A stretch of 42,265 bases of DNA, from assembly GCA_009602725.1 (NCBI GenBank), contig WELB01000117.1, positions 304,990 to 347,254 of the forward strand, read 5' to 3'. Both the position numbers and the translations under genes were made by a program. Position 1 is the stretch's first letter. Each line of letters starts with the position of its first letter. The notes below the pieces were generated by a model. It saw only the letters and a list, made by a program, of their open reading frames with translations. It had not been told where the DNA came from and made no database searches. This stretch comes from Spirogloea muscicola. Taxonomy: Eukaryota; Streptophyta; Zygnematophyceae; Spirogloeales; Spirogloeaceae. This document shows, in pieces, positions 378 to 41,229 of this stretch.

Positions 378-1091
378 CAGCGCCGCAACGGACAGAGCCA
401 GTGAATACACAGCGAGATCGACGAGGGCGGCAGCTGTCTGACACACTGCACATGCTTTCCTCTGGCCTCGTCAGGCCCTCAAGCCACGGCGTGGCCTCTG
501 ATTATACAATTACTGTGATTCAACCAGCTGATTGCATTCCAATAATGTGGCGCCCCGGTGCCAGCCGCGCAGAGCATGTACGATAAGCTTGCGCCGGTGC
601 CACTCAGTCCCCAGCCTTGCCGCCTGCTCCGCGCGGAAGGGCATGGCCGGGCTCAAAGTGCTGGAATCAGTTAGCAACATAAGCTGGAGATAAGCACTAC
701 ATTGCTGTACTGAGGCAGCACTGCCGCAGCCTGCATCGCCGCAGCCTGCACGACCTTGAGCTGCAAGCAATGCTGTATGTACGAAGTTTTGAGCCTGCGA
801 CTGCACTCGAAGGCTTGCTCAAGCGGCCATTTGGAAGTCTGATTCTTAGCTATTTCTCAAACATTCACTTTCATTCCTTTGGGCTGGCCCTTCTCAGCCA
901 CTGCTTCTTGTAGAAGAGTACCCTCTCTTGTTCAAAGTAAGTCCGCTGGAGCTGGCAAATAAGACATTCACTTCTGCTTCCGCCCAATCCGTGGGCATTT
1001 CAGTTAACTCTGCCGGGTTTGGGGCTTTCTGTGCGGCCTCTGCAGAGCGGGACTCGTGAAACTAAATGTCACGAATTTGTGATGGCAATGC
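378..1091. other. Convergent intergenic stretch, no gene seen
   Basis: This lies between the stop of the Pro/His-rich frame and the stop codon of the minus-strand helicase. It should hold the 3' UTRs of both. I see no conserved coding frame, RNA gene or repeat in it. Confidence 0.5.
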
Positions 1092-11983
<10,892 letters not shown>

Positions 11984-12377
11984 NNNNNNNNNNNNNNNNN
12001 NNNNNNNNNNNNNNNNNNNNNNNNNNNNNNNNNNNNNNNNNNNNNNNNNNNNNNNNNNNNNNNNNNNNNNNNNNNNNNNNNNNNNNNNNNNNNNNNNNNN
12101 NNNNNNNNNNNNNNNNNNNNNNNNNNNNNNNNNNNNNNNNNNNNNNNNNNNNNNNNNNNNNNNNNNNNNNNNNNNNNNNNNNNNNNNNNNNNNNNNNNNN
12201 NNNNNNNNNNNNNNNNNNNNNNNNNNNNNNNNNNNNNNNNNNNNNNNNNNNNNNNNNNNNNNNNNNNNNNNNNNNNNNNNNNNNNNNNNNNNNNNNNNNN
12301 NNNNNNNNNNNNNNNNNNNNNNNNNNNNNNNNNNNNNNNNNNNNNNNNNNNNNNNNNNNNNNNNNNNNNNNNNNNNN
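11984..12377. other. Assembly gap (394 Ns)
   Basis: A run of N between GCC/CGG-repeat-rich edges, a common cause of assembly failure. It hides the 5' exon and start codon of the DExH7-like gene (-), the 5' part of the DPH4-like gene (+) and the promoter region between them. The true length is unknown. Confidence 1.
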
Positions 12378-12878
12378 CCGGCGGCGGCGGCGGCGGCCGC
12401 GGCAGGACCTCGGCGACGGCGGCGCGGCCGAGTACGAGCACCCTTGCCGCTGCGGCGACGCCTACCGCCTCACCGGTGAGCTCTCGCACAGCCGCCATGG
12501 CGGCCGGCGCTCTGCCTGACGACTTCCGGACCTTGCCCACAGTTGGCAACACTTGTTCATGGCGCGCAACGGCGGGCCGTCGTTGTTTAAGCTCCTGCTG
12601 CAGCATCTGCCTCAGCGGGGAGCTCGTGTGACGGTCTCCGGGTCACGAAGCCATCAAGTCCAGACGTCTTTCCATAGTCAAACCGAACTCCATGGACCCC
12701 TGCAGGCTTGGACGTCGCCGCCGCAGTAGCTGGGCACGAGGAGGACGACCAGCAGCGGCGGCAGGGACAACGTCAGGCGCAGGGCGGTGCTGGCCCCGAG
12801 GAGGCGGTGCAGGCGGAGATCCTCGTCCCCTGCGGATCCTGCTCCCTCCAGATCTGTGTAGCCGTTGGCTCGCGCTGA
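12378..12878 (+). CDS. DPH4: DPH4 (DNAJC24)-like diphthamide-pathway zinc protein, C-terminal half
   Basis: Two exons are visible: 12378-12475 (entering from the gap) and 12706-12878 (stop TGA 12876-12878), joined in phase 1. Together they encode a CSL-type zinc finger. The first exon carries HPCRCGDAY and the second carries VPCGSCSLQICV, giving the CxC...CxxC pattern. DPH3 and DPH4 share this fold; the CRCG form rather than CPCG favours DPH4, a J-domain co-chaperone needed for the first step of diphthamide synthesis on eEF2. The J domain expected at the N-terminus would lie in the gap, so it is not confirmed. The linker between the half-fingers (about 45 residues) is long and Gln/Arg-rich. 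A second possible acceptor at 12726 would shorten it by seven residues. The gene is head to head with the DExH7-like gene. Confidence 0.75.
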
Positions 12879-14002
12879 CTGCCTGCTGCAGACGCCCAGC
12901 AGAGCCCACGATTCAGTGTGCACTTTGCCGGTGTCAGCCCGCAGCTATTTGGCTGGCATGCCTGAGGACTGCCTTGCGTGCACGCGTCCTCCAATGCCGC
13001 CAGCCAAATTACAGCAAATGGCCCATTGCCAACAGCGGGCGTCCCCGGCCAGGATGGAGATGACAGGGAGCTCCAACCGGTTGTACAAAAGACCGAGAGC
13101 AATTGACGGCCATGCAGGTGCATAAGTCCTATTCTTATGGCCCCCCCAGACTGCTAAAACAGGATATTGTTGGAAGGATGAAGCAGGCCCCACTTGTTTC
13201 GCCAAATTTGGCAGGTTCGGTAGGTCTCTCCTTATTTCGCGCTTGGTGAGTCGCAGATTCGCGCAGACCCACTCAATCAAGCCGCACAAGGGCGACCTTT
13301 TTGGCGGCTGGGTTGCCAGGAAATAAGAGATGTCGAGCTCAGACTGCCAGGAGGCTATTCTCCCTGCAGAATGGGCTCGTTGATTAAGTCAAGAGCCCTT
13401 GTAAGGGGGCTCCATGTCGGGCAACGTGGCAACATTTCCAAGAGGCTCTGCTGCAGCGGCTAAGCATTAGATATCTTTGACCAATATGTCAAAGTGCACG
13501 CGCCCCAGAAAGCTTTGTTACTGACTCTGTTACAAACAGCAAGCAGCAGGTGGGACAGAAGAGGATCTATACTGTGCTGCCATGTTTTAGTACATCGCAG
13601 CAAGCGACACCATGACATTTTTCCAAGAACCTGTCTGAGCACACAGCATGCTGCCAATGTGCTTGTTGCCAATGTGCTATGACTCAAGGGTATCCTGTGC
13701 TGCCTAATCGCTGGCTCGCACATATTCTTTGATTATAATGATCGGGGCCCAGGCCTTGGGACTCGTGCTCCATGCTCTGACCACGAAGGCAGGCCGGCCG
13801 AGTACACCTCTGCGTCAGTCCTTTGTAACACCATATGAACATCTCATGATGCCATGGAGTTGGTCCTGGCACTTCCTTGGCCCTACTTGCCCCTTGCAGG
13901 CCATGCTGCAGATTGCTGGCCAAAGAATATATATATTGGAAAAGCAATTGTCTTTGCCAAAGAATGTGATGCATTTGCATCCTACGGCGAGTATGCCGCT
14001 GA
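12879..14002. other. Convergent intergenic stretch, no gene seen
   Basis: This separates the stop of the DPH4-like gene (+) from the stop of the DUF599 gene (-). Open frames on both strands are short and show no family signature. Both 3' UTRs should lie here. I see no repeat related to the retroelements further right. Confidence 0.5.
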
Positions 14003-15196
14003 TCAGAGCCCGTGCTTGAGGTGGTGGTTGTTCTCAACTACATGAACGCTATTAAGAGTATCAGCGCCGTTGCCGTTGTTGCGGTGTTCAGAGGCAGGCC
14101 CAACAAACGCTGCACTGCCTCCGCTGCTGCCGGTTGGTGCGTGGTAGCCGCCGGGCGTATCGAGCTTGTACAGTAGACCAACCATGAGGAGGGAGACGAC
14201 CAGCATGGGTATGGGGCCGAAGAGCCAGCAGATGAGCGGGAAGGCGACGTAGTACCCGCGCGTGCCGACGGTGTAGAAGTCGGAGCCCTTCTCCAGGACC
14301 TTGGCGACGTAGTCTGGCGTCAAGCCCGGCAGCTCGGGCCCCACGGGGATGTTCACCAGGAAGCTGACGTGGTTGACGTAGCGGATGCTCTGCGGCGTCA
14401 CCCAACAGGGAACGGCACGCACTGGGGCGCGCCCGCCCGGCCAAGGCGCCAACAGGCCAAAGGCTCGCCAGTTTTCACCAATTGGACGCTAGATTCTCAA
14501 GCGCACAACTTGTACAAGCCCCAGTCTTAGACGCGGAAGAGGCTATGCCGAGCTCTATCTTGAACATATTAAGCTATGGGATGGTGTGGGCAGCGAGATC
14601 CAGGGGGCGGCGCACCTGGATGTAGCAGAGGAAGGCCCAGAGGAAGCAGAGGAGGAGGCAGAAGAACTTGACGGCGATGACGGCGTCGGAGTCGGCGCCC
14701 ACGATGAAGCTCTGCAGCGCCTGCCGCACGACGGGGTCCAGCGCGGAGCGCAGCAGCGCGGCCATGGCGGTGGACAGGCCGATGGCGGTGGACGCCAGCA
14801 GCGACGAGGCCATCACCCAGTTGCGCAACGTCTGCACCGCCAGGATGCTGCGCTTCTCGTTGTCCTGCAACGACGGCGGCGGCGACGGCGGCGCCGCATG
14901 AGGGAGCTGGAGCTGGAGCTGGCTCTGCCGCCGGCGAGGTCCCATGCAAAGCAGACGACGTCGTGATGGAGGAGCACTTTGGGAAGTTAGCACTGATGGG
15001 GAGTTTGATGGGCGGGCCGCACACTGACCCGCATGATGTGGTGCACCCAGGCGCGGCGGACCATGTGGTTGACGCCGACGACCGTGGCGAGCGGCCGGCG
15101 TCGCACCGTCGCGGCCAGCCAGACGTGGTACGCCAGCAGCGCCGCCACGCCCGGCGGCACCAGCACGGCGTCCAGCAGCGCCTCGCTCCACGCCAT
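14003..15196 (-). CDS. DUF599 family integral membrane protein
   Basis: Three exons with exact frame: 15196-15029 (56 codons from ATG), 14864-14616 (83 codons) and 14389-14003 (128 codons plus stop), giving 267 residues, in line with plant DUF599 proteins. Family hallmarks are visible in order: an N-terminal hydrophobic segment followed by YHVWLAATVRRRPLATVVG, WVHHIMR, then NEKRSILAVQTLRN, two membrane segments, SIRYVNHVSFLVN and a last pair of hydrophobic segments around FGPIPMLVVSLLMVGLLY. Four or more transmembrane helices are expected, with a soluble Ser/Gly/His-rich C-terminal tail of about 40 residues. The molecular function of DUF599 is not established, so none is assigned. All introns are GT-AG. 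A MITE-like element sits about 100 bp upstream of the start codon. Confidence 0.9.
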
Positions 15197-15247
15197 GGCC
15201 CCCGCCGCCGCGCCTGGCCGGGCCGCAGGCCAGGGTTGCTGCAGCTC

Positions 15248-15459
15248 AGGGCGCGGCTAGGTCGTCGGATCCCGGGCCAGGGTTGCCAACGAAGGGCCGA
15301 CTCACACTTGGTCGGTTGGTCGCAGATTGGCCTTGCTTTTGGCCTCAGGTGGTACGATTTTGACCCCAAGTGTCCACTCAAAGCGCGACACGTAATCCCC
15401 AGCCCAAATCGACCGACCAGGTGTGAAGCGGCCCTTTAGGGCGCGGCTAGGTCGTCGGA
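15248..15459. repeat. 22-bp direct repeat bracketing the MITE-like element
   Basis: An identical 22-base word beginning AGGGCGCGGC occurs at 15248-15269 and again at 15438-15459. The two copies flank about 170 bp upstream of the DUF599 gene. They are too long for an ordinary DNA-transposon target duplication and do not abut the inverted repeats exactly on the left, so the mechanism is open. Confidence 0.7.
15294..15434. mobile_element. MITE-like element with imperfect terminal inverted repeats
   Basis: The left end reads GGGCCGACTCACACTTGGTC. The reverse complement of the right end reads GGGCCGCTTCACACCTGGTC. This gives about 24 bp of imperfect terminal inverted repeat around a 141-bp core with no coding capacity. 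A 22-bp direct repeat lies outside it. No superfamily is assigned because no clean short target duplication is visible. Confidence 0.5.
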
Positions 15460-15579
15460 CCCCGCCGTCTCCCGGGAACGTGGCCCATGTAGGTCGGCCC
15501 GCTGCTGATGCATGCTCGATCCCGCGGGCGCCACGTGGCAGCCTGCTGACTTGGCAGGCGCCACGGTCAGCCCGCGGGT

Positions 15580-15610
<31 letters not shown>

Positions 15611-15960
15611 TGCGCCGCGAATATCGGCGGCTTTCGCGCGGCCGGACGGACGGCCGGACGACCCCAAGCTGAGAGCCCTCTCCTCTCCTGGACGCAGCCG
15701 CCCTTCTCGCTGCGGAGGCTGCGGCATGAACTGCGAGGAGGCGAGGGAGGCCGCAGCCGCCGAGGAGGCTGCGGCAGCCAGGAAGCGCGGCGCAGGCGGG
15801 TGCCGAGCGGCCGCCGCCGCCGCCGCAACTGCGGATGCACGACCTGGCCCGTGTTGGGTGCCCGTCCATCACCTCACGACATTGGGGTACGCATTCCGGC
15901 GGCCCATGCTGCGTGCCGTCGACCTGCGCAAGCCATCTTCTCACAGTTGCGCTCCTTACG
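15460..15960. other. GC-rich stretch with CCG repeats, no supported gene
   Basis: Contains a (CCG)n run around 15580-15608 and more GCC-type repeats near 15805-15830. Alanine/arginine-rich open frames result on both strands. One plus-strand frame opens with ATG at 15726 (MNCEEAREA...) but it runs into retroelement tail sequence by about 16000 and has no recognisable domain. Confidence 0.4.
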
Positions 15961-15969
15961 GCGCTTATT

Positions 15970-16650
15970 TACCAGGGTCAAAGGCTTCAGAGTCTAAAGC
16001 TTTACGCCGAACTCTGAAAAAGGTGCTCTCTCTAATGGGGCGCGGGCTGTGAACAGCCAGCCACAAGGATTTACAAGGGCCGAAGAAGGCGCTGAAAGAC
16101 CAGACTAAGCAAGGATTGTGTAGCATAATCATCAAATAATCACTAAGTAGTAGCCGCAAGTCAGAAAGACTAGCCGCCTGAAAGCAGTCCCCTTGACGAA
16201 AGCCAGAGGCTGCAGCTAGAGCACGGCCAGCACAGATGCAAGGCGGAGGAATATGGACAGGCGCATACGAAAGACCTGCGCAAGCTAGCTAGCGGCGTTG
16301 AAGTCGGCCCTGCCCGCTCCCGCCTGTGGTACACACCGCGTCCCGCAAGCCGGGCCAACCGGCATAGCCACTGAGACCCGAAAGCCCCGTGCACACTGAC
16401 GGCCAGTGGAACGAATTCGTCCCTTTCCGGGTCGTCCGCGTACTTGGCCTCTTTGCCACAAGTGGCATTCGCTGCTGTGGATGCCCAGCCTTCGAAGCAG
16501 AGAACCCCGGATATGAGCAGTCAAGCACATCTGTGGTGACCACGTCGGCCAGGACTTGCGGGCCACCGACCGGCGTGGTGGCCACCAAGTCTGAGGTCGA
16601 GGATCTGGATCGCTGTCTAGGTGTGACGGACACGTCACTTGGCGAGCTAG
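15970..16650 (-). mobile_element. 5'-truncated R2-like retroelement copy: RLE fragment plus 3' tail
   Basis: On the minus strand, 16600-16480 encodes DLVATTPVGGPQVLADVVTT. This matches the endonuclease core of the long ORF at 31992-35498 (LDIVGVQPGGGPRALVDVVV). Toward 16290-16150 comes a decayed C-terminus (RMRLSIFLRLASVL) with a stop and frame changes. Past the stop follows the family tail with a stem-loop at 16041-16065. No reverse transcriptase part is present. It is a dead 5'-truncated insertion. Its upstream end abuts the plus-strand block starting at 16651. Confidence 0.7.
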
Positions 16651-17010: not shown

Positions 17011-17850
17011 AGACAGCTGAGCTGGCTTGACACGTGTGGTCTGTGGCTGAGTCACGCGTTTCAGATGAGAATTGAGCGAGGATGGGAGTCCTCTTCCAGC
17101 CGAAGTCGAGTCAACCGGTTATCAAACCGCTATCACAACAATGCGACACCAAGGCGACAGAGCGACAACGACGACGCGACACCAACGCGACGGAGCGACG
17201 ACGACAACGCGACGGCAAGGGCCCAAGCCCTCGCGAGACGACAACCATCCGGTTGTGGAACGGACGGCTGGAGCTCACCACCCGGGGGAGTGATTGACCC
17301 CTGGGTCCGGTGGTCGGCCCACGAAGGGCCGGCCAAACAGCTTATTAGCCAACCAGCGTAGCCACGGTCGCACCTGGCCAATCAGGCAGCGTTAGGCTCT
17401 CTACAGTGCCCGGCCCCAGCCGGCGGCCGCCGCAGCGCTCGGCCCAAGCCCAAGCCCGCCCGGCAAGCTTCACCCTCTTGCCCACGCCTGCGCCACCCGC
17501 GCCTGCGTCCGCGCCTGCGCCCAGAGAGCGTAGCGCATAGAGCATGCAGCAGATGGCCCCGCGCCTGCGTCCGCGCCCGCGCCCAGAGAGCGTAGTGCGC
17601 AGAGCATACGGCAGACGGCAGCTAGTGGACCTTAGCCTGGACGCGCGTACGACTGCGAGGAGTCTTGAAAGACTCGCGGTGAGCAGCCTTGCATACAGCG
17701 CTGCCATCGTCTGTCTGTCTGCCTAGACCGGAGGGTAGATGTCATTGAGTCTGCAGTGTCGCGCGCAGAACTGACATTGGGGTCAAGTATACTGCATCTG
17801 TTGCTAGAGTCTTTGCTCTTGCATCTTGCATATCCTTGCATCTTTTGCAT
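17011..17850. repeat. Non-coding stretch with two small tandem duplications
   Basis: Around 17140-17220 a unit of about 33 bp rich in GCGACxx triplets is repeated twice. At 17497-17620 a 62-bp unit starting CCGCGCCTGCGTCC is repeated twice in tandem with a few differences. Open frames here (Arg/Asp-rich) are by-products of the repeats. No gene or family signature was found. Confidence 0.6.
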
Positions 17851-18738
17851 TGGGATACGAAAAGCCGAGTTCCTGTCGAATAAAGAGTTCCAGTTGCAGA
17901 CAGATTGGAGTAAACTCGGCATGGGAGCTGTTCTTAAACAGCAGGATGAGAACCACCATGGTTACGTCATTGCATTTGCTAGTCGTTCTAACAATGCTGC
18001 TCAACAAAACTACTCTGCATATGATGCGAATGCCTTTGCAGCTGTTTGGGCTATTACGCAATTTAGGCCTTTTCGAATTGGGCGTCGATTTACGCTGTTT
18101 ACTGATCATCAACCTTTGAAATGGTTGATGACCTCTACCAATCTGACTGGTAAATTGGCTCGCTGGGCGTTACGCTTGCAGGAATACGACTTTGACATCA
18201 TTCATAAGCCAGGGCTTCAAAATGTGGATGCGGATGGCCTCAGTCGCCACCCTATTCCAGCAACTTTGGATGATCAGATTGCTTTGATGTCTACTGCCAC
18301 TGTTCCTGTGCTTCCCAGCAATCCTGCTTCTTACCTGGTTTGCGTTGCTAAGCATTCTCAATTTGCTTGTGCAATTGAAGCTCCTGATGATAGTTTCTTC
18401 TCAGAAGATGTATGGTTGGATGTTCCACTTTTACATCATCTTCAGACTGGGACCTACCTACCCAGCATTTCAACCCTCCAGAAAGATCGCATCAACACAG
18501 AGCCAGAAAATATGTTTGGCAGAACAATCAGTTGAAGCGACCGCATGAGAATTGTGGACATCAGGTTGTCCATTCTCCTGCTTCAAGCTTGCAACTCGTA
18601 CAAGATGTCCATACAGACTATGGCCACTTCGGTGTTAAGCGTACAATCAGTCTTCTTATGCCTAGATTTTGGTGGTATGGTTTGACTGACACTGTCAAAC
18701 AGGTTTTGTCGAAATACGAGGAATGTGATCGTATTTAG
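17850..18738 (+). pseudogene. Ty3/gypsy retrotransposon remnant: RNase H and integrase zinc-finger start
   Basis: One frame (about 17860-18535) gives the Ty3/gypsy RNase H domain: QLQTDWSKLGMGAVL, YVIAFASRS, LFTDHQPLKWLM, FDIIHKPGLQNVDADGLSR. It ends at a stop near 18535. A second frame carries on (about 18480-18738) with the spacer and the start of the integrase HHCC finger (HTDYGHFGVKRT, PRFWWYGL, YEECDRI). A frameshift therefore separates the two, the second cysteine of the finger is missing, and the frame stops at 18738. Gag, protease, reverse transcriptase and the integrase core are absent. The piece has clearly lower GC than its surroundings. No flanking LTR pair was identified. Confidence 0.85.
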
Positions 18739-19521: not shown

Positions 19522-20300
19522 GTAGCGGACTGGGCTAGCCGGAAATTCGGTAGCCAGTGTTAGCGGACGATGTCACAGTCGATGACCATAACGTACCGGG
19601 AACTGGACGGGTGTCACTCTTCGTCCGCCCTGAACCTCTTGCCCGTCACAACGGTAAGCCTGATCGTCTCCTAGCTGTAAGTAACCGTAGAGACGAAGCT
19701 AGCGCACGGGTGTCACGTCAGAGAGCACTCCCCGACTGTCACGTCAAAAGACGCACTTGCGCCACGGGCGGCACGGCGGCCCGGCGGCGGGCCTGCCCGG
19801 CGGCATGCCATGCTCAGGTGTGCTGGCCAGCATGGGGCCTGGCGGGGCAGCCTGAATCTCCGGGCCCCGGGCTCGTCCCTCCAAGGACCCTGTCTTGGAC
19901 CTTGTTCATTGCTTCATCCTCCCCTGTTCTGACATAGATCTTCCGGCCTATTTGTAGCTGCTAATCGCTTGTCGGCCCCCCCCGAACCTTTGTCAATTCT
20001 TTTCGGGCTGGCTTTTCGCAGCCCTAGCCCCCATGGGGAGTGCCACTTCTTCTGGGCTGGCCATTTACAGCCCCCCGCCCCTTCAGCAGAGCACACTTCT
20101 TTCATTCTTCTTTCTGGGCTGGCCACATGCAGCTATTGCCCCTTCTGGAAGCAACTTTCGACTTCCTGGGCTGGCTTTTCACAGCCATCGCCCCTATTGG
20201 GAAATGCTTCTTCACTGTCACTTTCACAGCGTCCTCCCCTTGGGAAGAGGTCACATCTTCTTCCAAGGCCTCGGCCTTGAGGCCGAGCCAGTCACACTCT
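19522..20300 (+). mobile_element. Internally deleted non-autonomous copy of the R2-like element
   Basis: Starts GTAGCGGACTGGGC with GCGGACGATGTCAC and GATGACCATAACGT, the 5' block also found inverted at 35971-35880. It passes directly to 3' UTR sequence (GTCTCCTAGCTGTAAGTA at about 19668 and the GGCGGCATGCCATGCTC segment at about 19800). It ends with four stem-loop modules whose GGGCTGG starts lie at 20005, 20054, 20116 and 20168. The whole ORF of about 3.5 kb is missing. It abuts the promoter side of the plus-strand SMUBP-2-like gene. Confidence 0.65.
20005..20190 (+). repeat. Array of four stem-loop modules (GGGCTGGC...CAGCC(C)) in the element 3' tail
   Basis: Four modules spaced 49, 62 and 52 bases start GGGCTGGC at 20005, 20054, 20116 and 20168. 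Each can pair with CAGCC(C), or a shorter CAGC in the third, some 12-20 bases on, and is mostly followed by a C-rich stretch (CGCCCC). The minus-strand counterpart is 31530-31281. Confidence 0.75.
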
Positions 20301-23300
20301 TCGACGAGCTAGGAGAGTGTACACTGCTGGACTGACGCAGCAGCTCAGGGCGGCCATCAGCTCTCAGTCCCGCTTCGTAGGGATGCAATGGCTGCTCGTA
20401 CCACCCTCAGTGCCGGCCTCATCGACCTGCGTACCTCCTCGCAGGCGGCCGACGAGCCTGATGACGATGACGATGAGTTCACCTCCGAAGAAGCTGATGA
20501 CGATGGGATCACATCCGAAGAAGTGCCCACGACTGCATGCAGCGTCGCCTTTCCGCCGTCGCTGACGGCTCGGCAGCGGGCCGCCCTCCATGGTGATGCC
20601 CATCCTCCTTCTAAGTCAGCCTGCTGCAACGCCCACAATGTTAAGTGCTCCTCCAGCTATGTCACGCACAGGCTCACGTCATTGGAAGATTACCGAATTT
20701 CCATCATTCTATGGATTTAGGACCAAGCCTCCATGTTGGACCAAAGTTTCGTATTCACTAGCTTACTGGCTGGGTTGCCTTGCTGGGCTATGATTGGTCA
20801 CGAGACAGCAGCTCCACGTTCCTTCTCATGCCGATGCCAGCTGGATGCTGCAGAGGCGGCCAAGGAGCACGGCCTGCAGCATGGGAGCAAGACTGACAGC
20901 CAGGGACGACGTATGCTCACTATTACACGACCATTTGCAGAGGGGCGCCATGTCGTTGTACCTATGGAAGAGGCTGGGCTCACTGATGCTTGCTTGGGCG
21001 AGCTCACTGAGTCCCTCCTGGGGCTCAAGTTGGACGGGAAGCTGCAGCTTTGCAGCGGCACAGCAGCCATGGGGTTGAGGAGGGAGCAGGGTTCTGGGAG
21101 CTCTGGCAGAGGGGAGTCTGCGGACGTTCTAACTGTTGAAAGCTTCGTCCATAGCATGGACAAGCTACTTGACCTCGAGAAGGTATTGCTTAACCTGCGC
21201 AAGTGCCCCAGCTCCTCTGATCCCGGGCGGCTGTCATTACATTCCACGTTTAACATGAGAATGTTCTGTGTCACTTCTTTAGCTGTCAAGCTTGACTTCA
21301 CAACCTGAAAGCCGTTTGGCATTGCCAGATTCCGGCAACTTGTGCCAATGCATTCACTAATTGCTATTGTATTTGCGCTGCCATTAGGGGGTTATTCATC
21401 GCAATTCCACAGTGTAGTGGACGTGCCAAGCAAGCTTTAAGGCATTTGGAAACCCAATTGCAGCTGTGCTTTTTGGGCGGCATCTTCTTACTCGTTTTCG
21501 TCGCCTTCTGCTCATAATCATCTCCCACGGTCGTGGGAAGTGGCTTCCAGGACGCGGAGCTGGCAAGATCGACCGAGCTTGCGACGCTGATGAAGCCCGA
21601 GACAGCCCAGCGGCGAGGGCTCGCGCTGCTTAATCTCAAGTGTGTCGACGAGACGCCTGGCCTGTTTGGCAGGACGCTGCTGGTTCTTAAGGCGAACTAG
21701 GGTGACAGCCTTCCCACTCACAAGGTGCCGACCTGGCGCCTCGCTGCAGAGACCAGGCTTTAGGCTCACAGGGTATGTAGAGCTGGGCTTTTCTGCTTGT
21801 AAAGCTCAGGGTTAGTATAGTTGCCGGCTTGGAGGCTTGAGATGCGAATGTGCTTAATGCAGCTGTTGAGTTTCACACGCACAGTAGCTTGGCTGCTCTG
21901 TCCTGCTATGCAGTTCTGGCGGCCTCACGATATTGTGGCATTGAAGCGGAGCGACGCAGAGCCATCCAGCCCGGTGCTGGAGCAGGGCATGGTGTACGAC
22001 CTCAACGCCAAGGAGGACAGCATCACTGTTGTTGTGGATTCATTCCTAAGAATGACCTGGACCAACCTATCCGCCTTGAGAGGCTGGTCAATGAAGTGAG
22101 ACGCAGTACCACATTTCTTGGTTTGCCTCGTGGCGTCTGAATGTCGTTGTATGCAACATGCTATTGAGATTCTGCTGTGCAATTGTTGTCGTGGTTTCCT
22201 GTTACTGCTTCGTGACATGAATGTGCGTGATCCTTTGGGCTGTACCTTGTCAGCCGACTTGCTTCTATCTGCCAAAGCTAGAGTGCCTTTTGGCTAGAGT
22301 GCCTCAGGAGTGGCAGCCTTTCCTGCAGGCTACATACAAGATGATGAAGGACACGCTGATGAGATTGACTCAAGGGGTCCTGCAAGGCCCTGCAGCGTAC
22401 CTTGTGCCGACGCTGTTTGGTACCAGGCCTCCAAGCTTTGCTGGGGTGCCTCCAGTAGTAAATTTCTACAACCGGCAGCTCGACCACTCACAGCAGGCAG
22501 CTGTGGCCAAGGCACTGTCAGCTTATGACGTCTTTCTGCTGCATGGCCCGCCTGGCACTGGAAAGACCACGGTTGTTGTTGAGATCATCCTGCAGGTACC
22601 AAGGTCTCTCACAGAGTCCTGCTCATGAAAGTGCAGCCCTTGCATTAACCAGCTTCTGAACGAAAAAGAAGGGAGACGTTAGTGAGAAGGTGGTCTTTCC
22701 AGTTTAAGAATGTCTTTAATTGTTGGCTTGGGCAGGAGGTGAGCAGGGGCCGCAAAGTGCTTGCGTGCGCAGCGTCAAACATTGCAGTGGACAACCTCGT
22801 CGAGCGGCTCGCCACAACGAAAGTGAAGCTTATCCGGCTGGGCCACCCAGCCAGGCTGCTTCCCCAGGTGCTCGATTGCTCGCTGGATGCGCAAGTCTTA
22901 CCGATTGACAACAGTATCCTCGCCAAGTATGCCCGCAAGCAGATGAAGGTGCAAGTCAGCACTTGGCTGATTGCCTTGACCAACTTGCACTTCTCAGATT
23001 GCCGTGGTTGCTAAGGTAATGGTCATTCATGCATGGCTGCAGGAGCTTCTAGGACATGGCAACTTGATGACTTTGTCTAATGAATAGTATTGATTGCGAG
23101 CGATTGCTCTTTCTCTGTCCAGCAACTTGAAGACAAGCTTCTGAAAATCCAAGGACCGCAGAGACAGGGCGAACCTGCGACGGGACTTGCGATGCCTGGC
23201 CATGGAGGAACGCAAACGCCAGCAGCCTCTTGTTGCTGCCATCATCCAGAACAGTAGAGTCATACTTACAACTCCTACTGGCGCTTCGAATCGCTACCTG

Positions 23301-25470
23301 GACGTAAGTGGGGCCTACGTATACGTCCCACATGCCATCGGCACAATCACTCACAGGACATAGCCTTCAGTAATGCGCATGCTAAGCCAGCCACATTTGT
23401 CAAAGTCAGTACGAATTGTTAAGCAGTCTGAGGCAGTCAACCAAAGGCTCATTGATATCTGTTGAGAATCTATCCCACATTACTCGAGTGTGTACTTGAT
23501 ACAGACAGATCACTTACAATGTGCAGTTTATGTTGTTCCAGGAAGTGAGATTTGATGTAGTCGTCATAGACGAGGCCGCTCAAGCGCTTGAGGCGGTCAG
23601 CTGGATTGCTTTGCTCAAGGGCAGGCGATGCGTGCTTGCAGGCGACCATCTGCGGCTGCCCCCCACGGTGTTGAGCAAGGAGGCAGAGCGACACGGCCTA
23701 GGAGTGACGCTCTTTGTGAGATTGTCCGACTTTTAAGGGTCTACGCCATCACATCGCTCCTGGACGTACAATATCGCATGCACGAGGATATCATGCGGTG
23801 GTCCTCGGAGGCTCTCTACAGCGGCCAGGTGTTTTCTGGAGTCTGGGGCTGAAATTGGGGCTAGAAGCTTATCTTGACAGAATGAGAGCTCAGTACTCCC
23901 AAGTGCCTGTATTTGACTTGTTCACATGGAAGCCGCAGATGTTTGTTATACTGTCAGCCTAGTAGTACTTTGGCACATATACATTCAATGAGTTTCATAC
24001 AAGGACCCCTTTGATGCAATTGTGTGCAATTACTCTTGTGTGCAATCACTCCAGCACTTACTCGGCAACTCCTCTGGTACAATTGCCCACATAGGTGAAT
24101 GCTCACAGCCTTGTTGCTGGGCACAAGCTATTGGGCTTGGATGGTGTGTCACGGACAGCAACCTCTGAAGCAACACTTGTTCTTGTTGACACAACTGGGT
24201 ATTGCAGATGAACTGAAGATAGCACGGCCTGTACTCCTCCTTCTGTAATGTTTGTGCGCAAGTTAAATACATGGAACTGCTTACGTTTGCGGAGGCAGCT
24301 TTGTTGATCATGTCAGAGTGATCACATGTGGCGCATGAGCATACACTCTGTGACAGACCGTGATGCTGGACAGATGCGAAATGGAGGAGGCAAGGGAGGA
24401 GGAAGGGGACAGCTGGCAGAATGACGGCGAGGCTCACGTCGTTATCGCTTACGCTGAGAGGCTACTTGATGCAGGGGTTGCGGCAACCGACATTGGCATC
24501 ATAACGCCCTACAGTGCACAGGTCTGCTCAACGCCAATCTTCAATTTGATGACCCCTTCCGTCTCAGGATCTGGCATTTCTGGAGTGATTCAAAAGTCTG
24601 CTGTGGAGGCAGAGCTCTCCATATAGGCGGTAGCCTTGTGTAAGCCTGACCAAGAGAAGGCTGGACAGTGCTGGTCAAGAACTGATGGCAATCTCTGGCA
24701 GAAGTGAAGTCAGTAAAGCATGCAGTTTTCGCTGGTTATGCAGTATCTTGCTGGCTGTACGTTTACATGCTGGGTATAGGGCATACACTTACTGTAAGAC
24801 AGGAGTCTAGCTGCTGACTTCCAGCTTCAGATGCTCTTGCATTGACAGGTTGCATGTCTTAAGGAGCTGAGGGGCAGTAAGCAGGTGCTGGCTCCCGTGG
24901 AGGTATTGACAGTTGACGGCTTTCAGGGCCGCGAAAAGGAGGCTATTATCATCAGCATGGTCCGATCAAATGACAGAGGAGAGGTGAAGATGTGAAAGAC
25001 TACCATTGCTACGTCACTCATGTTAGCACAGAGAGCAACATTTCTGCCAGGGCATTTGCTGCTACAAGTATCTGATGAATGCTGGAATGTATGGTCCTCA
25101 TGGAATGTCTGAGTAGTGCATCCGGTTTCGTGCTGCAGGCGGGTTTTCTGGCCGAAAGGCGCCGGATGAATGTGGCAGCGACACGAGCTAGGCGCCAGTG
25201 CTGCGTCATCTGTAATCGCGACACAGTGACACATGACGAGTTCTTGAAGGACATGATTGACTACTTTGAGATTCACGGAGAGCTCCTCAGTGCCATAGAA
25301 TTATACCCCCAGCAATGTGCTGAGGGGCAGGCAAGTGGAGAACACCAGCAGCAGCTCGGCAGCAGCAACTTGGACAGATGAACAGGGCAGTCTTAGCTCT
25401 TGCCAGACCAGTCAGGCAGGCACGTCCGCCTGCCTTTGCATGAGATCTCAGGTGGCAAGTAAGCTCCTCG
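20250..25470. repeat. Left arm of a large inverted duplication
   Basis: This arm matches the reverse complement of 25880-31250. It includes the end of a retroelement tail, the gene 5' flank, all twelve exons of an SMUBP-2-like gene and about 90 bases beyond its stop. In a stretch compared by eye (20849-21080 against 30667-30430) there are roughly 14 differences in about 235 bases. The left arm lacks about 200 bases present at roughly 26050-26260 in the right arm. Confidence 0.85.
20388..25381 (+). pseudogene. SMUBP2: SMUBP-2/IGHMBP2-like superfamily 1 helicase with N-terminal R3H, left copy, broken
   Basis: Exons: 20388-20592, 20854-21182, 21551-21724, 21914-~22096, 22329-22595, 22736-22948, 23123-23303, 23542-23828, 24090-~24206, ~24370-24521, 24849-24983, 25139-25381. 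SMUBP-2 proteins are 5'-to-3' DNA/RNA helicases linked to ribosomes. In order: acidic N-terminus; R3H domain (AALHEAAKEHGLQHGSK) across exons 1-2; VESFVHSMDKLLDLEKDAEL; Walker A GPPGTGKTT (22547-22570); ASNIAVDNLVERLA; Walker [62 protein letters not shown]. Lesions: TAG at 21698-21700 where the other arm has CAG; one-base deletion near 22030; one-base insertion near 23140; TAA plus a two-base length change near 23733. The right arm has none of these, so this copy cannot make a full helicase. Confidence 0.9.
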
Positions 25471-25479
25471 TAAGGTTTA

Positions 25480-25880
25480 GGGGTTATGGGAGAGCACTTT
25501 CTTTCAAAGGGGTCAAGGGCTGTGAACAGCCACAGCCCGTCTTGCCACAGCTCTTGCAAATTAAAGGTGGTGCCCAATAAAAGAAAGTATGCTCATACAA
25601 ATGGGCCGAGGGCTGTGGAAAGCCAACCCCCAAAGAATGCTAACATGTCCGAAGGGGCCGGAATAGGGCCAGTAACATCGTAAAAGAAGGTAAGGAGGAC
25701 CAATGCAGCCAAAAATGTCGACTGCGGCTGGTAGGAGGTAGGGAGGGTCACTCGAAGAATCTGCAGACTTGCTTAATAAGGGGGCTGCAAAGGAGAGAAG
25801 GGCCAGCAGAATATAGCAGCCCAAAAGTCTGTGCACCTCTTTGCTCACCTCGCCTCCTTCAATGTGCCACAGTTATCCGT
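25480..25880 (-). mobile_element. Spacer of the inverted duplication: R2-like endonuclease fragment fused to tail modules
   Basis: On the minus strand 25780-25690 encodes YLLPAAVDIFGCIGP, matching LLPAAIDTFGCLGP in the long retroelement ORF. It runs directly into tail sequence with stem-loops at about 25632-25600 and 25540-25507. It is a short dead fragment lying exactly between the two gene arms. Confidence 0.65.
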
Positions 25881-28800
25881 AGTATCTTCCAGCAGGGGCT
25901 TCCTTGCCACCTGAGACCTCATGCAAAGGCAGCCGGACGTGCCTGCCATGACTGGTCTGGCAAGAGCTGAGACTGCCCTGCTCATCTGTCCAAGTTGCTG
26001 CTGCCAAGCTGCTGGTGTTTCCCACTTGCCTGCCCCCAAGCACATTGACGGCAACAGTGTCAAGAAATGTGTATCAAGGTAAGTGCAGAACCACAAGGCA
26101 GCAACGTGAAATGCATGTGCTGACTTGATGCAGCAGAAGCCGAGCACCTCCAGGCGACTGGTCGCTTCACCTGGCTCTCGGCTTTTGCATGTCGCCATCA
26201 AGTCCCCTTCATAAGTGCTTTGCGTGCCTGCTTTGCGTGCCTTGTCGGGCGAGTAACTTCAATGCTGGGGGTAAATCTCCCCGGCCCTGAGGAGCTCTCC
26301 GTGAGCCTCAAAGTAGTCAATAATGTCTTTCAAGAACTCGTCGTGTGTCACTGTGTCGCGATCACAGACGACGCGGCACTGGCGCCTCGCTCGTGTCACC
26401 GCCACATTCATCCGGCGCCTTTCAGCCAGAAAACCCACCTGCAGCACAACATTGGATGCACACAGATGTTCCATTTGAACATTACATTTCAGTGTTGATC
26501 AGATACTTGTAGCAGCAAATGTCTCGGCAGAGTCCTTGCTCTATGTGCTGACATGAGCTGAGGTAGCAATGATAGTCTTTCACGTCTTCACCTCTCCTCT
26601 GCCATTTGATCAGACCATGCTGATGATGACAGCCTCTTTTTTGCGGCCCTGAAAGCCGTCAACTGTCGACATCTCCACAGGAGCCAGCACCTGCTTATCG
26701 TCCCTCAGCTGCTTAAGGCAATTAACCTGTCAATGCAAGAGCAGCTGACGTTGGAAGTCAGCCGCTAGACTGCTGTCTTGCAGTAAGTGCATGCCCTATA
26801 CCTCAGCATGTAAACGTACAGCCAGCAAGATAGTGCATAAAAAGCGAAAGCGCATGTTTTAGTGACTTCAAATATCCCACGGCATGCCATCAGATCTTGA
26901 CCAGCACTGTCCAGCCTTCTCTTGGTCAGGCTTACACAAGGCCACCGCCCATATGGCGAGCTCTGCCTCCACAGCTGTCCTTTGACACTCAAGAGAAGCC
27001 AGATCTTGAGACTGAAGGGGTCATCGAAATCAAAACTTGCGTTGGGCAGACCTGTGCACTGTATGGCGTTATGATGCCAATGTCGGCTGCTGCAACGCCT
27101 GCATGAATTAACCTTTCAGCGTAAGCAATAGCAACGTGAGCCTCGCCGTCATTCAGTATGCTGTCCCCTTCCTCCTCCCTTGCCTCCTCCATCTCACATC
27201 TGTCCAGCATCACATTTTGTCAAAAAATGTATGCTCGTGCGCCACATATGATCACTCTGACATGATCAAGAAAGCTGCCATAGTCGTAAGGATATCCATG
27301 TATACTACTTGCGTACTCAAATCACAGATGAATGAGTACGAGCCGTGCAGTCTTGGGTCCATCACAATACCCAGTCGTATCAACAAGCACAAGTGTTGCT
27401 TCAGAGGTTGCCGTCCGTGACACGCCATCCAAGCCCAATAGCTTGTGCCCGGCAACGAGGCTGTGAGCTTTTACCTGTGTGGGTGTATGTACCAGAGGAG
27501 TTGCCAGATAAGTGCTGGAGTTAGCAGTTGCACACAATTGCAACTCAAAGGGGTCCTTTGTACCTGATTGCACGTATATATTCCAATATACTACTAGGCT
27601 GACATACGGACATTGGCGGCTCAGGAATTTTTACATGTGAACAAGTCAATGTTAGGCACTTGGAGGATAAAGCTCTCATTCTGTCAAGATACCCTTCAAG
27701 CTCCAATGATCAAGACTTCAGTACACACCTTGCCGTTGTAGAGGGCCTCTGAGGACCACCGCATGATATCCTCGTGCATGCGCTACTGTACGTTCAGGAG
27801 CGACGTAATGGCGTCCCCGTAAAAATTGGACAACCTTTCAAAGAGTGTCACGGCTAGGCCCAGTCGCTCGGCCTCCTTGCTGATAACTGTTGGCGGCAGC
27901 TGCAGATGGTCGCCTGCAAGCACACATCGTCTGCCCTTGAGCAATGCGATCTAGCTGGCCGCCTCAAGCGCTTGAGCGGCCTCGTCTATGACAATGACAT
28001 CAAACGTCACTTCCTGGAACAAGATAAACTGTACCTTGTAAACTATCTATCTGTATCAAGTACATACTCGAGTGACAATGGGGTAGAGATCAGTGAGCCT
28101 CTGATGACTGCCTCAAGACTGCTTGACAAGTCGTACTGATCTTTGACACATGTGGCTCGCTTAGCATGCAAGTTTGTGGAGGCTATATGCTGGTGAGTGG
28201 CTGTGATCGGCATGTGGGGACGTATACATGGGCACCACTTACGTGCAGGTGGCGGGACAAAGCGCCAGTGAGGGTCGCGAGTATGACTTTGCTGTTTTTG
28301 ATGATGGCAGCAACAAGCGGCTGCTGACGACGGCGCTCCTCCTTGGCCAGCCATCGCAAATCCTGTCGCAGATTCGCCCTCTCTCTGCGATTGTTGGTTT
28401 CCAGTAGCTTGTCCTCAAGGTGCTGCACACAACAAGAGCAATTGCCACCAATCAATCTTTATCAGATAAAGTCATCAAGGTGCCATGTCTTCATCTCCGG
28501 CAGCTCCGGCAGCCATGCAAAGATGACCATGACCTCAGCAACCACAGCAATCTGAGAAGCGGAATCTGGTCATGGCTATCAGCTAAGTGCTGACTTGCAC
28601 CTTCATCTCCTCGCGGGCATCGTTGGCGAGAGCACTATTGTCACTCCGTAGGACTTGCGCATCCAGCGAGGCATCGAGCACCTGCGGTAGCAGCCTGGCT
28701 GGGTGGCCCAGCCGGACGAGCTTCACATTCTTCGTGGCGAGCCGCTCGACGAGGTTGTCCACCGCAATGTTCGACGCTGAGCACGCAAGCACTTTGCGGC

Positions 28801-31250
28801 CCCTGCTCACCTCCTGCCCAAGCCAACAATTACACATTCTTAAACTGGAAAGACCACCTTCTCACCTATCTCCTGTTTCTCCTTAAGAAGCTGAACCATG
28901 CAAGAGCTGCACTTTCATGAGCAGGACGCTGTGAGAGACTTTGGCACCTGCAGGATGATCTCAACGACAGCAGTGGTCTTTCCAGTGCCAGGCGGGCCAT
29001 GCAGCAGAAAAACGTCGTTAGCTGACAGTGCCTTGGTCACAGCGGCCTGCTGTGAGCGGTCGAGCTGCCCATTGAAGAAGTTTACCACCGGCGGCACCCC
29101 AGCAGAGGTTGGAGGCCTGGTACCAAACAGCGTTGGCACTAGGTCCGCAACGGGGCCTTGCAGGACGCCTTGAGTCAGATTCATCAACGTGTCCTTCAGC
29201 ATTTGGTATGCAGCCTGCAGGAAAGGCTGCCACTTCTGAAACACTGTAGCTTTGGCAGAGAGAAGCAATCTGGCTCACAGCCCAAACAATCATGCAACAA
29301 TCATGTCACAAACCGGTAGCAGGACACGAAGACGACAACTGCACAGGAGAAGCTCAATAGCATGTTGTGTACAACGACACCTAGATGCCACGAAGCAACC
29401 AAGAATGGTGGTACTGCGGATGTCTCACATCATTGACCAGCTTCTCCAGGTGGATAGGGTGGTCCAGGTCCTTCTCAGGAACGTCATCCACAACGACAGT
29501 AATGCTGTCCTCCCTGAGGTCGTATACAATGCCCTGCTCCAGCACCGGGCTGGTTGGCTCTGCTTCGCTCCGCTTCATCGCCACGATATCGCGAGGCCTC
29601 CACAACTGCGTAGCAGGACAGCAGCCAAGCTGCTGTGAGTCTGAAACTCAACAGCTGCATCAAGCACGACTGGAAATCAAGCCTCCAAGCCGACAATAAT
29701 ACAAATTCTGAATTTTACGAGCAGAGAAGCCCAGCTCTGTATACCCTGTGACCCTAAGCCTGGTCTCTGCAGCGAGGTGCCAGGTGGGTACCCTGTGAGG
29801 GGGAAAAAGGATGTCACCCTGGTTGGGCTTAAGTATTAGCAACGTCCTGCCAAACAGGCCAGGCGCCTCTTTGACACACATAAAGTCAAGCAGAGCGAGG
29901 CCTCGCCGCTGGGCTGTCTCGAGCTTCATAAGCGTCGCAAGCTCGTTCGATCTCGTCACCTCCGCGTCCTGGTAGCCACCTCGCACGACAGTTGGAGTGT
30001 TTGTGAGCAGGGAGGCGAAGAAACGAGTAAGAAGAGGATGCTAGAAAGCACAGCTGCAATCTAGGTTTTCCAATGCCTTAAAGCTTGCTTGGAATTCCAC
30101 TACACTGCAGAATTAGAGATGAATAATTGCCTATGGCTAGCGCAATAACAACAACAATTGGTGAATGAATTGGCACAAGTTGCAGAGATTGGCAGTACCA
30201 ACAGCTTTCAGGTTGTGAAGTCAAGCTTGTCAAGTAAACAAGTGACACAGAACATTCTCATGTCAAACGTGGAATGGAATGGCAGCCGCCCAGGATCAGA
30301 GGAGCTGGGGCACTTGCGCGGGTTAAGCAATACCTTCTCGAGGTCAAGTAGCTTGTCCATGCTACGGACGAAGCTTTCAACAGTTAGAACGTCCGCAGAC
30401 TCCCCTCTGCCAGAGCTCCCAGAACCCTGCTCCCTCCACAACCCCATGGCTGCTGTGCCGCTGCAAAGCTGCAGCTTCCCGTCCACCTTGAGCCCCAGGA
30501 GGGACTCAGTGAGCTCGCCCAAGCAAGCATCACTGAGCCCGCCCTCTTCCATAGGCACAACGACATGGCGCCCCTTTGCAGACGGTCGCGTGATAGTCAG
30601 CATGCGTCGTCCCTGGCTGTTGGTCTTGCTCCCATGCTGCAGGCCGTGCTCCTTGGCCGCCTCTGCAGCATCCAGCTTGCATAACGGCATGAGAAGGAAC
30701 GTGGGAGCTGCTGTCTATTGACCAATCATATCCCAGCAAGGCATACCAGCCAGTAAGCTAGTTAGGCAAAAAATTGGTCCAACATGAGGGCTTTATTCTA
30801 AATCAGGGCAGTGATAGATATTCAGTGAGCTCCATTCATGTGTTTTCCGTAACATCGCTGGAGGAGCACGTTGTGTGCCGTTACAGCAGGCTGACTAGAA
30901 GGCCAGTACTGAAGGAGGATGGGCATCACCGTGGAGGGCAGCCCGCTGCTGAGCCGTAACCGATGGCGGAAAGGCGATACTGCGGACAGTCGTGGGCTCG
31001 TCTTCCGATGTGATCCCATCGCCATCGGCCTGCAGCTGGTCTGGCTTGTCGGCCGCCTGCGACGAGGAACGCAGGTCGATGAGGCCAACACGGAGGGTGG
31101 TACGTGCAGTCATGGCTTCCCTATGAAGCGGGACTGGGCGCTGATGGCTGCCCTGAGCTGTTGTCAGCGATGTACACTGTCCTAGCTCGTCTGACAGTGT
31201 GTGTGGCTCGGCCTCAACGCCCAGGCCATTGAAGAAGTGACCTCTTCCAA
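25880..31250. repeat. Right arm of the large inverted duplication
   Basis: Reverse-complement counterpart of 20250-25470, with the same exon order, intron positions and flanking retroelement tail. It carries about 200 extra bases at roughly 26050-26260. The retroelement beyond its outer end (31.2-36.0 kb) is full length, whereas the one beyond the left arm lacks its ORF. Confidence 0.85.
26259..31113 (-). pseudogene. SMUBP2: SMUBP-2/IGHMBP2-like superfamily 1 helicase with N-terminal R3H, right copy, broken
   Basis: Same twelve-exon structure as the left copy, reading 31113-30930, 30662-30334, 29968-29792, 29605-29429, 29214-28948, 28813-28601, 28422-28243, 28013-27729, 27474-~27360, ~27200-27052, 26726-26592, 26438-26259. 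Frame is kept through the R3H domain, the beta-barrel region (GLFGRTLLILKPNQGD), Walker A GPPGTGKTTAVVE, ASNIAVDNLVERLA, AGDHLQLPPTV, VDTTGY, ITPYSAQ and AERRRMNVAVTRARR. Three in-frame stops break it: TAG at 27953-27951 where the left copy has TGG (after EAAS), TAG at 27785-27783 replacing the Tyr of QYRMH, and TGA at 26612-26610 where the left copy has CGA (ISMV-R-SN). None of the left copy's lesions is shared. Point-stop errors in the assembly cannot be excluded from sequence alone. Confidence 0.9.
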
Positions 31251-31280
31251 AAGGGGCGGGGGCTTTGACAGTGACAGGCT

Positions 31281-31530
31281 CTTCCAATAGAGGGCGATGG
31301 CTGTTGAAAGCCAGCCCCGAGAGAAAAAAGACGCTTTCAGTAGAGGGCGACGGCTTGTAAGGGGCCAGCCCAGAAAGAATGATGCAAGAAGTGAGCTCTA
31401 GGGGGCGAGGGCTGTGAATGGCCAGCCCAGAAGCACTGAATGAGGTCCAAGAAGGTCCCTGGAGGGGCGAGCCCGGGGCAAAAGATGAAGGACGCTTCCA
31501 GAAGTGGGCGGTGGCTGTGAGAGGCCAGCC
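31281..31530 (-). repeat. Array of four stem-loop modules in the 3' tail of the long element
   Basis: On the minus strand, modules starting GGGCTGGC lie near 31529, 31430, 31373 and 31318. Each is followed within 12-20 bases by a pairing CAGCC/AAGCC and then CGCCC. Order and spacing resemble the array at 20005-20190. Confidence 0.75.
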
Positions 31531-31991
31531 CAGGAAAAAGAATTGACACATTTCAAAGGGGCCAAGGAAAGCGTCAAAGCACACAGAAATCAAGTAGCTA
31601 CGAAACACTCAGCAAACTCTGTTGAGCAACCGCAGTGAGAAACCGCAGGGCGGAGATCCCGAGGCTGCCCCGCCAAGCCCTGCCATGCTGGCTAACACGC
31701 CCGAGCATGGCATGCCGCCGGGCAGGCCCGCCGCCGGACCGTGCTGTCCGTGTTGTAGTGCCGCTTTGACGTGACACTCGTGCGCTGGCTTCGTCTACAC
31801 GGTTACTTACAGCTAGGAGACGATTCGGCTACTATTGTGACGAGCAAGGCAAATGCGTGTGTGTTAAGAGATGAGGAGGCCATGTGTGGCCAAGTACAAA
31901 GGCAAGCACATTGGACATATATACGTCACCTGCTGCTAAGCTGACCCGCTCAGTAACCACGAGTCAGCACATAGAGGTCGCTAGCTGACGC

Positions 31992-39110: not shown

Positions 39111-39225
39111 TTTCTCTCCTTCGTTCATTTTATATTGGGCTGGCTTTTTCCAGCCCCTATCCTCAATGGGCGAGCTCTTCTCAAGAAGAAAGAAAGGGCT
39201 CGCCCATTGAAGAGCTCTTCTCTCT
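39111..39225 (+). mobile_element. Retroelement tail reaching the F-box gene promoter
   Basis: A plus-type tail with stem-loop GGGCTGGCTTTTTCCAGCCC at 39137-39156 continues with CTATCCTCAATGGGCGAGC. A short inverted piece of the same (GGGCTCGCCCATTG) follows at about 39196-39210. The sequence ends less than 100 bp from the start codon at 39268. Confidence 0.7.
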
Positions 39226-39267
39226 TTCTTTCTCCTCAGCCGCATTCTTCTCGCCGCTCCGCCCGCC

Positions 39268-41229
39268 ATGGAGGGCCTGCCGGACGAGTGCCTGGCGGCG
39301 ATCCTTGCCCGCGCCGCCGCGCCGCCCGCCCACGCCCCGCTCGGCGCCTCTGGCTGGCTCTCGCCCGCGCGCGTCTGCCGCCGCTGGCGCCGCCTGGTGA
39401 AGGCCTCCGTCACCGAGCTCGCGCTGCGCGAGCGCAGGCAGCTCAGTAGACGGCAGGCGCCGTCGGTGCTCAAGAAGCGGCAGCTCGGCCCGGCGCTGGC
39501 CACAGCCTTCCCGAACCTCGCACGGCTACGCCTCACCGTCCACTTCTCCGCGAGTCTCTCCGATTTCTGCTCGCTGACGGCCGCCACTGCACTGTCAGAT
39601 CTGCGGGTGACCCTGCGGTCCCACTGCATCCACTATAAACACATTCACGTACCGCCAGAGGGTCTGAATGATCTCGTTGCCCATGCACGGATACTGCGGG
39701 GGCTGACTCTCCAGTGCCACCCGGCCGTTCTGGTTCCCATCATTGCCCAGCTCACGGCCCTCGAGAGCCTCTCCATGTTTATGTGCAACTTCTCTGGTAA
39801 GTGCTACTCCGTAATGTAGTACGTGCTCTGACCTAGATGCCTGATATAGGTACAATACCCTGTCACTGCAGTGCAATTTGGCCTTCCCTCCTTGTAAGAA
39901 GATGGGCTATTGACGGGCCGGTGTGATTGATAATGGCCTCTGACAGACGCGGACATCCAAACTATCGTTGTCTCGTGCAAGCGTCTCACGGAGCTGGAGC
40001 TTGGCAGCTGCAAGCGGCCCTCTGGTCCTCTCACAGACGCAGGACTTCTATACATTGCCAAGAGTTTGCCGCAGCTACGATCGCTCTACTTGACTGGCTG
40101 TGGGAATATCACGGACGCCGGGATTATTGCGCTAGCCTCCGCTTGCCAGCTGCTGCAGCAGGTCGGCTTTCAAGCCTGTTCAAGGCTGTCGGTAGTCTCC
40201 TTTGAGGAGCTGATGTCATCATGCTGCTCGCTGACGCGGTTGCTCATCGACAGGCCCTGGATTAGCCACAGGCTGCCGCCAGAGACAGCTACAGCCATTT
40301 TCTCGAAATTGCAGGTAGTAGAGATACGCATCTCAGCAGATGATGACAACACTGATGCTATCAAGGACCTAGCTGCCTCTTGCTGGCAGTTGCAAGAACT
40401 TCACATTCTTGGCTCAGGTGGTGCCCTCGATCCGTGGCTGGTCGGTTTCAACGAGCTTTCATCCCTTTCGGTGCTGAAGTTGACTCGGTGGACGGTGACA
40501 GCTTTGGCTTTGGGTGCTTTCTTGGCCAAGGCCCCCCACTTGGTGGCCCTTGGTCTTCATGGCCTTCATTGCCTTACGACGGACTTGACCTTCCCTACCA
40601 GTCTTTCATCGCTCCGTTCCCTCGACTTTGATGTGTGTTGGGACACAGACGAAAGTGTGAATGGCTTCTGGAAGCTCGGCGGCTGGTGCTCTGGCCTTTC
40701 ATCACTTCGAATTGCTGACATCTCTCACCTGCAAGCAAACAAGGACTGGGCAACAGTTCTTGCCGATTGCGGTGGACTTCTTAGCCTGGAGCTTGGTGTG
40801 CCAGATTGCAAGGATTACGAGAGATTGTTCATTGCGCATAGATTACTGGCACTTCCATGCCCTACAGAGGTGACAATGAACTCAAATATATATGAATGTG
40901 AGGGGACGTATCAGAGTATCTCGCGCTTGGTGAGCCCATGCACAAGCCTGCAAGTTGTGCGCTTATGCTGTCGCTGGTGTTGCCCCGAGAACATCTTCAT
41001 CCAGATGATTGCCGACCTCCTTGCCACTTGCAGCCGACTAGCATATCTGCATGTGGCCGGCCTCTCTTATACCAAGGTCAAACGGCTGCCGCAAGATGTT
41101 GCAAAACTCTTTTTGCACAGTGCAAGAGTAGCTCGGCTGGAGAGGGTGGAAGAGCGATGGGAGGCCGACTATGGTCTAGCTCATGATTACTTTTTCAAGT
41201 TTCGCATTCTTCATGAGACTGCCATTTAA
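39268..41229 (+). CDS. F-box / leucine-rich-repeat protein
   Basis: Two exons, 39268-39796 and 39947-41229, joined in phase 1 (GTAAGT donor, CAG acceptor), give 603 residues. The N-terminus MEGLPDECLAAILA followed by VCRRWRRLVKASV is an F-box, which would bind SKP1 in an SCF ubiquitin ligase. From about residue 90 onward there are leucine-rich repeats, clearest in exon 2: SCKRLTELELGSC, LPQLRSLYLTGCGNITDAGI (the AMN1-type signature), CWQLQELHILGSG, LRSLDFDVC, LLSLELGVPDC, LQVVRLCCRWC. The repeats would be the substrate-binding surface; the substrate is unknown. The frame is intact and exon GC drops from very high in exon 1 to moderate in exon 2. The ATG context is GCCATGG. Retroelement tail sequence lies immediately upstream, so promoter and 5' UTR may be element-derived. 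Confidence 0.9.

Follow-up and report, generated by a model that had tools for sequence, protein, structure and literature searches.

The inverted pair and its surroundings

The window, the whole stretch of 42,265 nucleotides that was analysed (C117:304990-347254 of Spirogloea muscicola), carries two convergent copies of a helicase gene. Self-comparison by BLAST pairs 20049-25317 with 31433-26260 (82.6% identity over 5,329 columns, E = 0) and, in a second segment, 25313-25468 with 26047-25894 (90.4% over 157), yielding one large inverted pair whose arms, A1 and B1, are ~83% identical overall, differing by about 15-17%. A repeat search returned 47 inverted pairs in the window. Pieces of A1/B1 make up 19 of the 25 that were listed, the longest single piece among these being 483 nt at 94% identity (20834-21316 / 30200-30682). 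The main features are:

19638-19862, no strand: outer upstream segment that recurs at 31651-31848 (74%)
20049-25468, plus strand: left arm A1, an R3H-SMUBP-2 helicase gene copy with 12 exons that has become a pseudogene
25469-25893, no strand: central spacer of 425 bp, collinear with C270 (84%) and inverted in C124 (78%)
25894-31433, minus strand: right arm B1, the other copy of the gene, likewise a pseudogene, with three nonsense codons
31851-35822, minus strand: LINE-like retroelement adjoining the upstream flank of B1, outside the duplication

The LINE-like element has a reverse transcriptase frame of 1235 aa. Many copies of it were listed, at 91-99% identity, with a common end at 31851 and varying stop points, as 5′-truncated copies have. 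A retrotransposon RNase H fragment (PF17917, 4.3e-34) lies at 17669-18532 on the plus strand. Between the pair and the more distant paralogue C described below are F-box-like and LRR frames (39211-41226, plus strand), in a stretch with 90.6% identity to C270:129.7-132.1 kb. Short diverged repeats, some of which also flank the arms, are abundant at 36-39 kb and 42 kb. A run of N occupies 11984-12377, and others are at matching places on two further contigs (C124:409425-409767 and C270:149907-150352).

Gene structure and identity

The arrangement recurs on C124 and C270, and copies of the two arms and of paralogue C are numbered 1, 2 and 3 for C117, C124 and C270 respectively. When arms and relatives are aligned, twelve exons with GT-AG borders fall at the same places in A1, A2, B1, B2 and B3, and GT and AG are retained at all 11 introns of A1 and B1. 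Borders were placed by conserved splice sites; a gene-model program that penalised introns only mildly had produced spurious small exons. The exons of A1, with those of B1 that are pertinent below, are:

20388-20592, plus strand: A1 exon 1, corresponding to the first half of R3H in C1; start codon inferred
20854-21182, plus strand: A1 exon 2, corresponding to the second half of R3H in C1
21551-21724, plus strand: A1 exon 3, with stop TAG at 21698
21914-22095, plus strand: A1 exon 4, with a net 5-nt length change relative to A2 and B1
22329-22595, plus strand: A1 exon 5, with the P-loop motif
22736-22948, plus strand: A1 exon 6
23123-23303, plus strand: A1 exon 7, with a 1-nt insertion
23542-23828, plus strand: A1 exon 8, with a 2-nt insertion
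24095-24198, plus strand: A1 exon 9
24374-24521, plus strand: A1 exon 10
24849-24983, plus strand: A1 exon 11
25139-25330, plus strand: A1 exon 12, with approximate coding end
30930-31110, minus strand: B1 exon 1, the start codon being outside this range
27729-28013, minus strand: B1 exon 8, with stops TAG at 27953-27951 and 27785-27783
26592-26726, minus strand: B1 exon 11, with stop TGA at 26612-26610

Identification of the gene comes from its intact paralogue C1 (C117:353.3-358.2 kb, ~17 kb from B1), which is open for 797 aa. C1 has a UPF1-like core, with matches to AAA_11 (1.2e-63), AAA_12 (1.1e-58) and the SMUBP-2/HCS1 1B domain (3e-18). R3H is detected, marginally, at the N end of C1 (PF01424, 1.3e-6, 28.8 bits against a cut-off of 26.8). 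Among solved structures the best match to the C1 protein is SMUBP-2 (PDB 4b3f/4b3g, E 1.1e-170 and 1.6e-170, residues 113-745 of 746), and a separate R3H chain named SMUBP-2 (1msz) is also matched. In A1, AAA_11 and AAA_12 are matched by the frames of single exons. The exon-2 frame taken alone matched no family, R3H being split by intron 1.

The initial annotation, made from the letters of the window, had described an inverted duplication of an R3H-SMUBP-2 helicase gene, with two converging copies of twelve matching exons and matching 5′ flanks across a spacer of ~400 bp. Self-comparison and exon alignment bear out each of these points, and the domains and structure matches of C1 bear out the gene's identity. 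That an intact copy might exist elsewhere, for which it had advised a search, is also the case.

Three homologous regions

The genome searched amounts to 153 Mb in 471 contigs. Among the best-scoring candidates of the DNA searches, and thus with at least this many copies, a plus/minus pair is found again on C124 (391-402 kb) and C270 (136-145.5 kb). The A arm on C270 is truncated, lacking its 5′ half and ending inside exon 6. Paralogue C, likewise among the best-scoring candidates, is at C117:353-358 kb, C124:297-302 kb and C270:124-129 kb. The left flank of the pair is collinear with both C124 and C270 in local BLAST, in pieces of 77-91% identity, and a unique flank piece, 12400-15200, is found in the three regions only, one match being in two pieces. 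(In a DNA query with 1-16600 a repeat dominated the output, which had no C124 or C270 match; it was the shorter unique piece and local BLAST that matched both.) The three collinear regions are equally diverged, with a dS between C copies of 0.197-0.203.

C124 shows rearrangement on the side of the C gene. A half copy of arm B there, 290391-294695, matches 390500-394815 in inverted orientation and is 96.5% like the left arm of the C124 pair, a likely sign of an inversion spanning about 95 kb whose breakpoint was duplicated.

Threefold copy number is not uniform over the genome, as there are four loci for PCNA, two for porphobilinogen deaminase and four for Piwi genes (Piwi-domain matches on C5, C41 and C54 are in one pattern and that on C188 in another). 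The triplication is probably genome-wide. A report on Spirogloea muscicola describes a genome triplication, three AGO 1/5/10 genes and an AGO 2/3/7 clade (PMC7994812), in agreement with both the threefold homology seen here and the Argonaute counts. Among solved structures the PCNA exon comes closest, behind 3k4x (matched in three stretches of one chain), to 2zvv, 6o09 and 2zvw, which are Arabidopsis proteins. No paper was found in which the name of this helicase gene occurs together with Spirogloea.

Age and order of events

By site patterns, tree and topology tests, the A and B arm types are older than the split of the three regions. At informative sites in C117/C124, 135 keep the arm type, 49 unite the arms within a region and 17 are control. 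The corresponding counts are 59, 12 and 17 for C117/C270 (3′ half only) and 46, 24 and 16 for C124/C270. In a tree of the arms and relatives without B2h, support is 100/99 for the B clade and 100/100 for A1+A2, though weak (79/81) for A1+A2+A3. The AU test rejects both A1+B1 (p 1.3e-5) and A2+B2 (p 2.5e-4). The duplication had initially been taken as fairly recent, on a similarity that seemed high in introns and exons alike where they were compared. Neither holds: the arm types predate the three-way split, and A1-B1 identity is 83.8% in introns versus 88.1% in exons.

The interval between duplication and split was apparently not long. dS is 0.204 for A1-A2 and ranges from 0.176 to 0.324 from arm to arm, A2-B2 (0.176) being the lowest arm pair. 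The mean for the nine A-B pairs (A1-A3 by B1-B3), 0.248, is barely above the 0.227 of the six like-arm pairs, so the duplication would have preceded the split by little. That it is nonetheless old also follows from the presence of the same tail-to-tail arrangement in two related regions. A point against the history favoured below is that introns are less alike between C copies (81.4-81.9%) than in most A-B comparisons (79.9-83.8%).

Exchange between the arms

Arm type is not kept evenly along the pair. In C117/C124, A1 coordinates 20849-21248 have 13 within-region versus 2 arm-type sites, and elsewhere the counts are 36 versus 133 (Fisher 6e-7). In C124/C270, coordinates 24873-25272 have 15 versus 2, and elsewhere 9 versus 44 (Fisher 2e-7). 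The bins to which both Fisher values apply were chosen after the counts were seen. The two patches look like arm-to-arm gene conversion. For C117/C270 (3′ half) there is no excess of within-region sites, and conversion is not seen in that comparison since they are fewer than control (12 versus 17). The first patch lies within the longest of the listed pieces of the pair:

20834-21316, plus strand: patch alike in both arms (94%), partner of 30200-30682, read as conversion after the three-way split
30200-30682, minus strand: partner patch in arm B1, pairing with 20834-21316

The centre has also changed. The spacer of C117 has the orientation relative to that of C270 that is expected from the flanks, and the opposite one relative to C124. 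By this comparison the centre was turned round in one lineage, the outcome expected of exchange between inverted arms, and either state may be the ancestral one.

Decay of the copies

A1 has one stop (exon 3) and three frameshifting changes (exons 4, 7 and 8); single-base indels, in A1 as in the other copies, could be assembly errors. B1 has three stops, two in exon 8 and one in exon 11, by direct reading; this number is used here, a count of private changes having given four stop-type changes. The other copies fare variously. A2 is open for 802 aa, though its exon 1 is missing 9 nt inside R3H and its tail is altered; in B2 two exons are each short by one base; B3 has many lesions and 439 extra nt in exon 11. 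C3 has lost a donor site and has one exon one base short, and C2 is open from exon 2 onward, its first exon being ambiguous. (A changed genetic code, raised by in-frame TAG in Piwi matches, was rejected: the standard code was kept because in the stretch of C54 that was read the stops appear to fall outside the exon, and C2 ends in TAG and C1 and C3 in TGA.)

No lesion common to more than one region was seen among the A, B and C copies compared. Decay followed the three-way split, separately in each region. Private nonsynonymous to synonymous changes number 174:135 in five A/B copies versus 55:128 in three C copies (p 1.7e-8; B2h and A3 were left out of these counts). The open frame of A2 and the private rate ratio of B1, only 0.26, count against this reading.

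Interpretation and alternatives

The favoured explanation, at a probability of roughly 0.85, is an inverted duplication inherited through a segmental, probably genome-wide, triplication, with recombination between arms and independent pseudogenisation. A tail-to-tail duplication of an SMUBP-2 (IGHMBP2-like) helicase gene arose before the segment was triplicated, and three homologous regions then inherited the A/B pair with both copies coding at that time. Local recombination of the inverted arms left conversion patches and, in one region, an exchange that flipped the spacer. The copies decayed independently, both arms in the window ending as pseudogenes, and the probable cause is redundancy of A/B with the neighbouring paralogue C.

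That the arms are still working genes, or that A1 and B1 yield shorter useful proteins, is unlikely, even though the excess of exon over intron identity, an A1-B1 dN/dS of 0.32 and the retention of every splice dinucleotide in both would fit it. The first stop in the joined frame is at codon 228 in A1 and codon 530 in B1, in each case ahead of the second helicase domain, whose position is taken from C1.

Somewhat less probable is the initial proposal that read-through of the spacer gives a long hairpin RNA, from which small RNAs repress SMUBP-2 genes, a reading that is compatible with the duplication history. The arms converge across a short spacer and match perfectly for up to 72 bp, 394 of 5,400 A1 21-mers also occur in B1, and there are Piwi-domain genes at the four loci mentioned. 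However, identity of the arms of only about 83% is far from a near-perfect duplex, of the 394 common 21-mers just 20, 28 and 10 occur in C1, C2 and C3, and C270 lacks half of one arm. Moreover, A1-B1 dS (0.270) exceeds that of A1-B2 (0.226) and A1-B3 (0.219), and so pairing has not been maintained within C117. The 72-bp run starts near 21079, inside the converted patch. A narrower version, in which the palindrome retained in the three regions would still act as a regulatory inverted repeat, with conversion keeping only the near-perfectly matched exon-2 patch paired and hairpin small RNAs from it tuning the neighbouring SMUBP-2 genes, is a slightly longer shot again.

Independent inverted duplications, one per region, are very improbable. 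The closeness of dS between arms to dS between regions, and the low A2-B2 value, would suit them, but the preponderance of arm-type sites in C117/C124, the AU rejections and the homologous spacers in all three regions do not. Least credible is misassembly of two separate copies, for which the run of N can be cited, as the arms differ by about 15-17% and two further contigs have this same centre together with its spacer.

Comparison with known systems

The inherited, locally recombining pair is an old inverted gene duplication of a known kind. Its gene resembles SMUBP-2/IGHMBP2 in the 1B, AAA_11 and AAA_12 domains of C1. It differs in that R3H precedes the helicase in C1, whereas in human SMUBP-2 R3H is C-terminal, and in that the window copies are broken, A1 by a stop and frameshifts and B1 by stops, with neither having an intact reading frame.

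Several inverted repeats cause silencing in plants, among them PAI1-PAI4, the soybean CHS I locus and rice Lgc1. The present pair is like them in having inverted paralogues and a short spacer, and unlike them in its diverged arms and in being known from DNA alone.

Gene-converting palindromes, as described in the portions available of reports on the mammalian X (PMC8981503) and the willow W (PMC7023750), are similar in having inverted gene-bearing arms, a spacer and conversion patches, and here too the arms are more alike within a locus in patches (13:2 and 15:2). In the mammalian X palindromes, by the same portion of PMC8981503, the arms are >99% identical, and the present pair, at about 83%, is also much smaller. 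What it offers is a single gene palindrome in three natural replicates, in which conversion patches, spacer inversion and decay can be viewed side by side, and a case in which duplicated arms that look recent can be old and partly homogenised.
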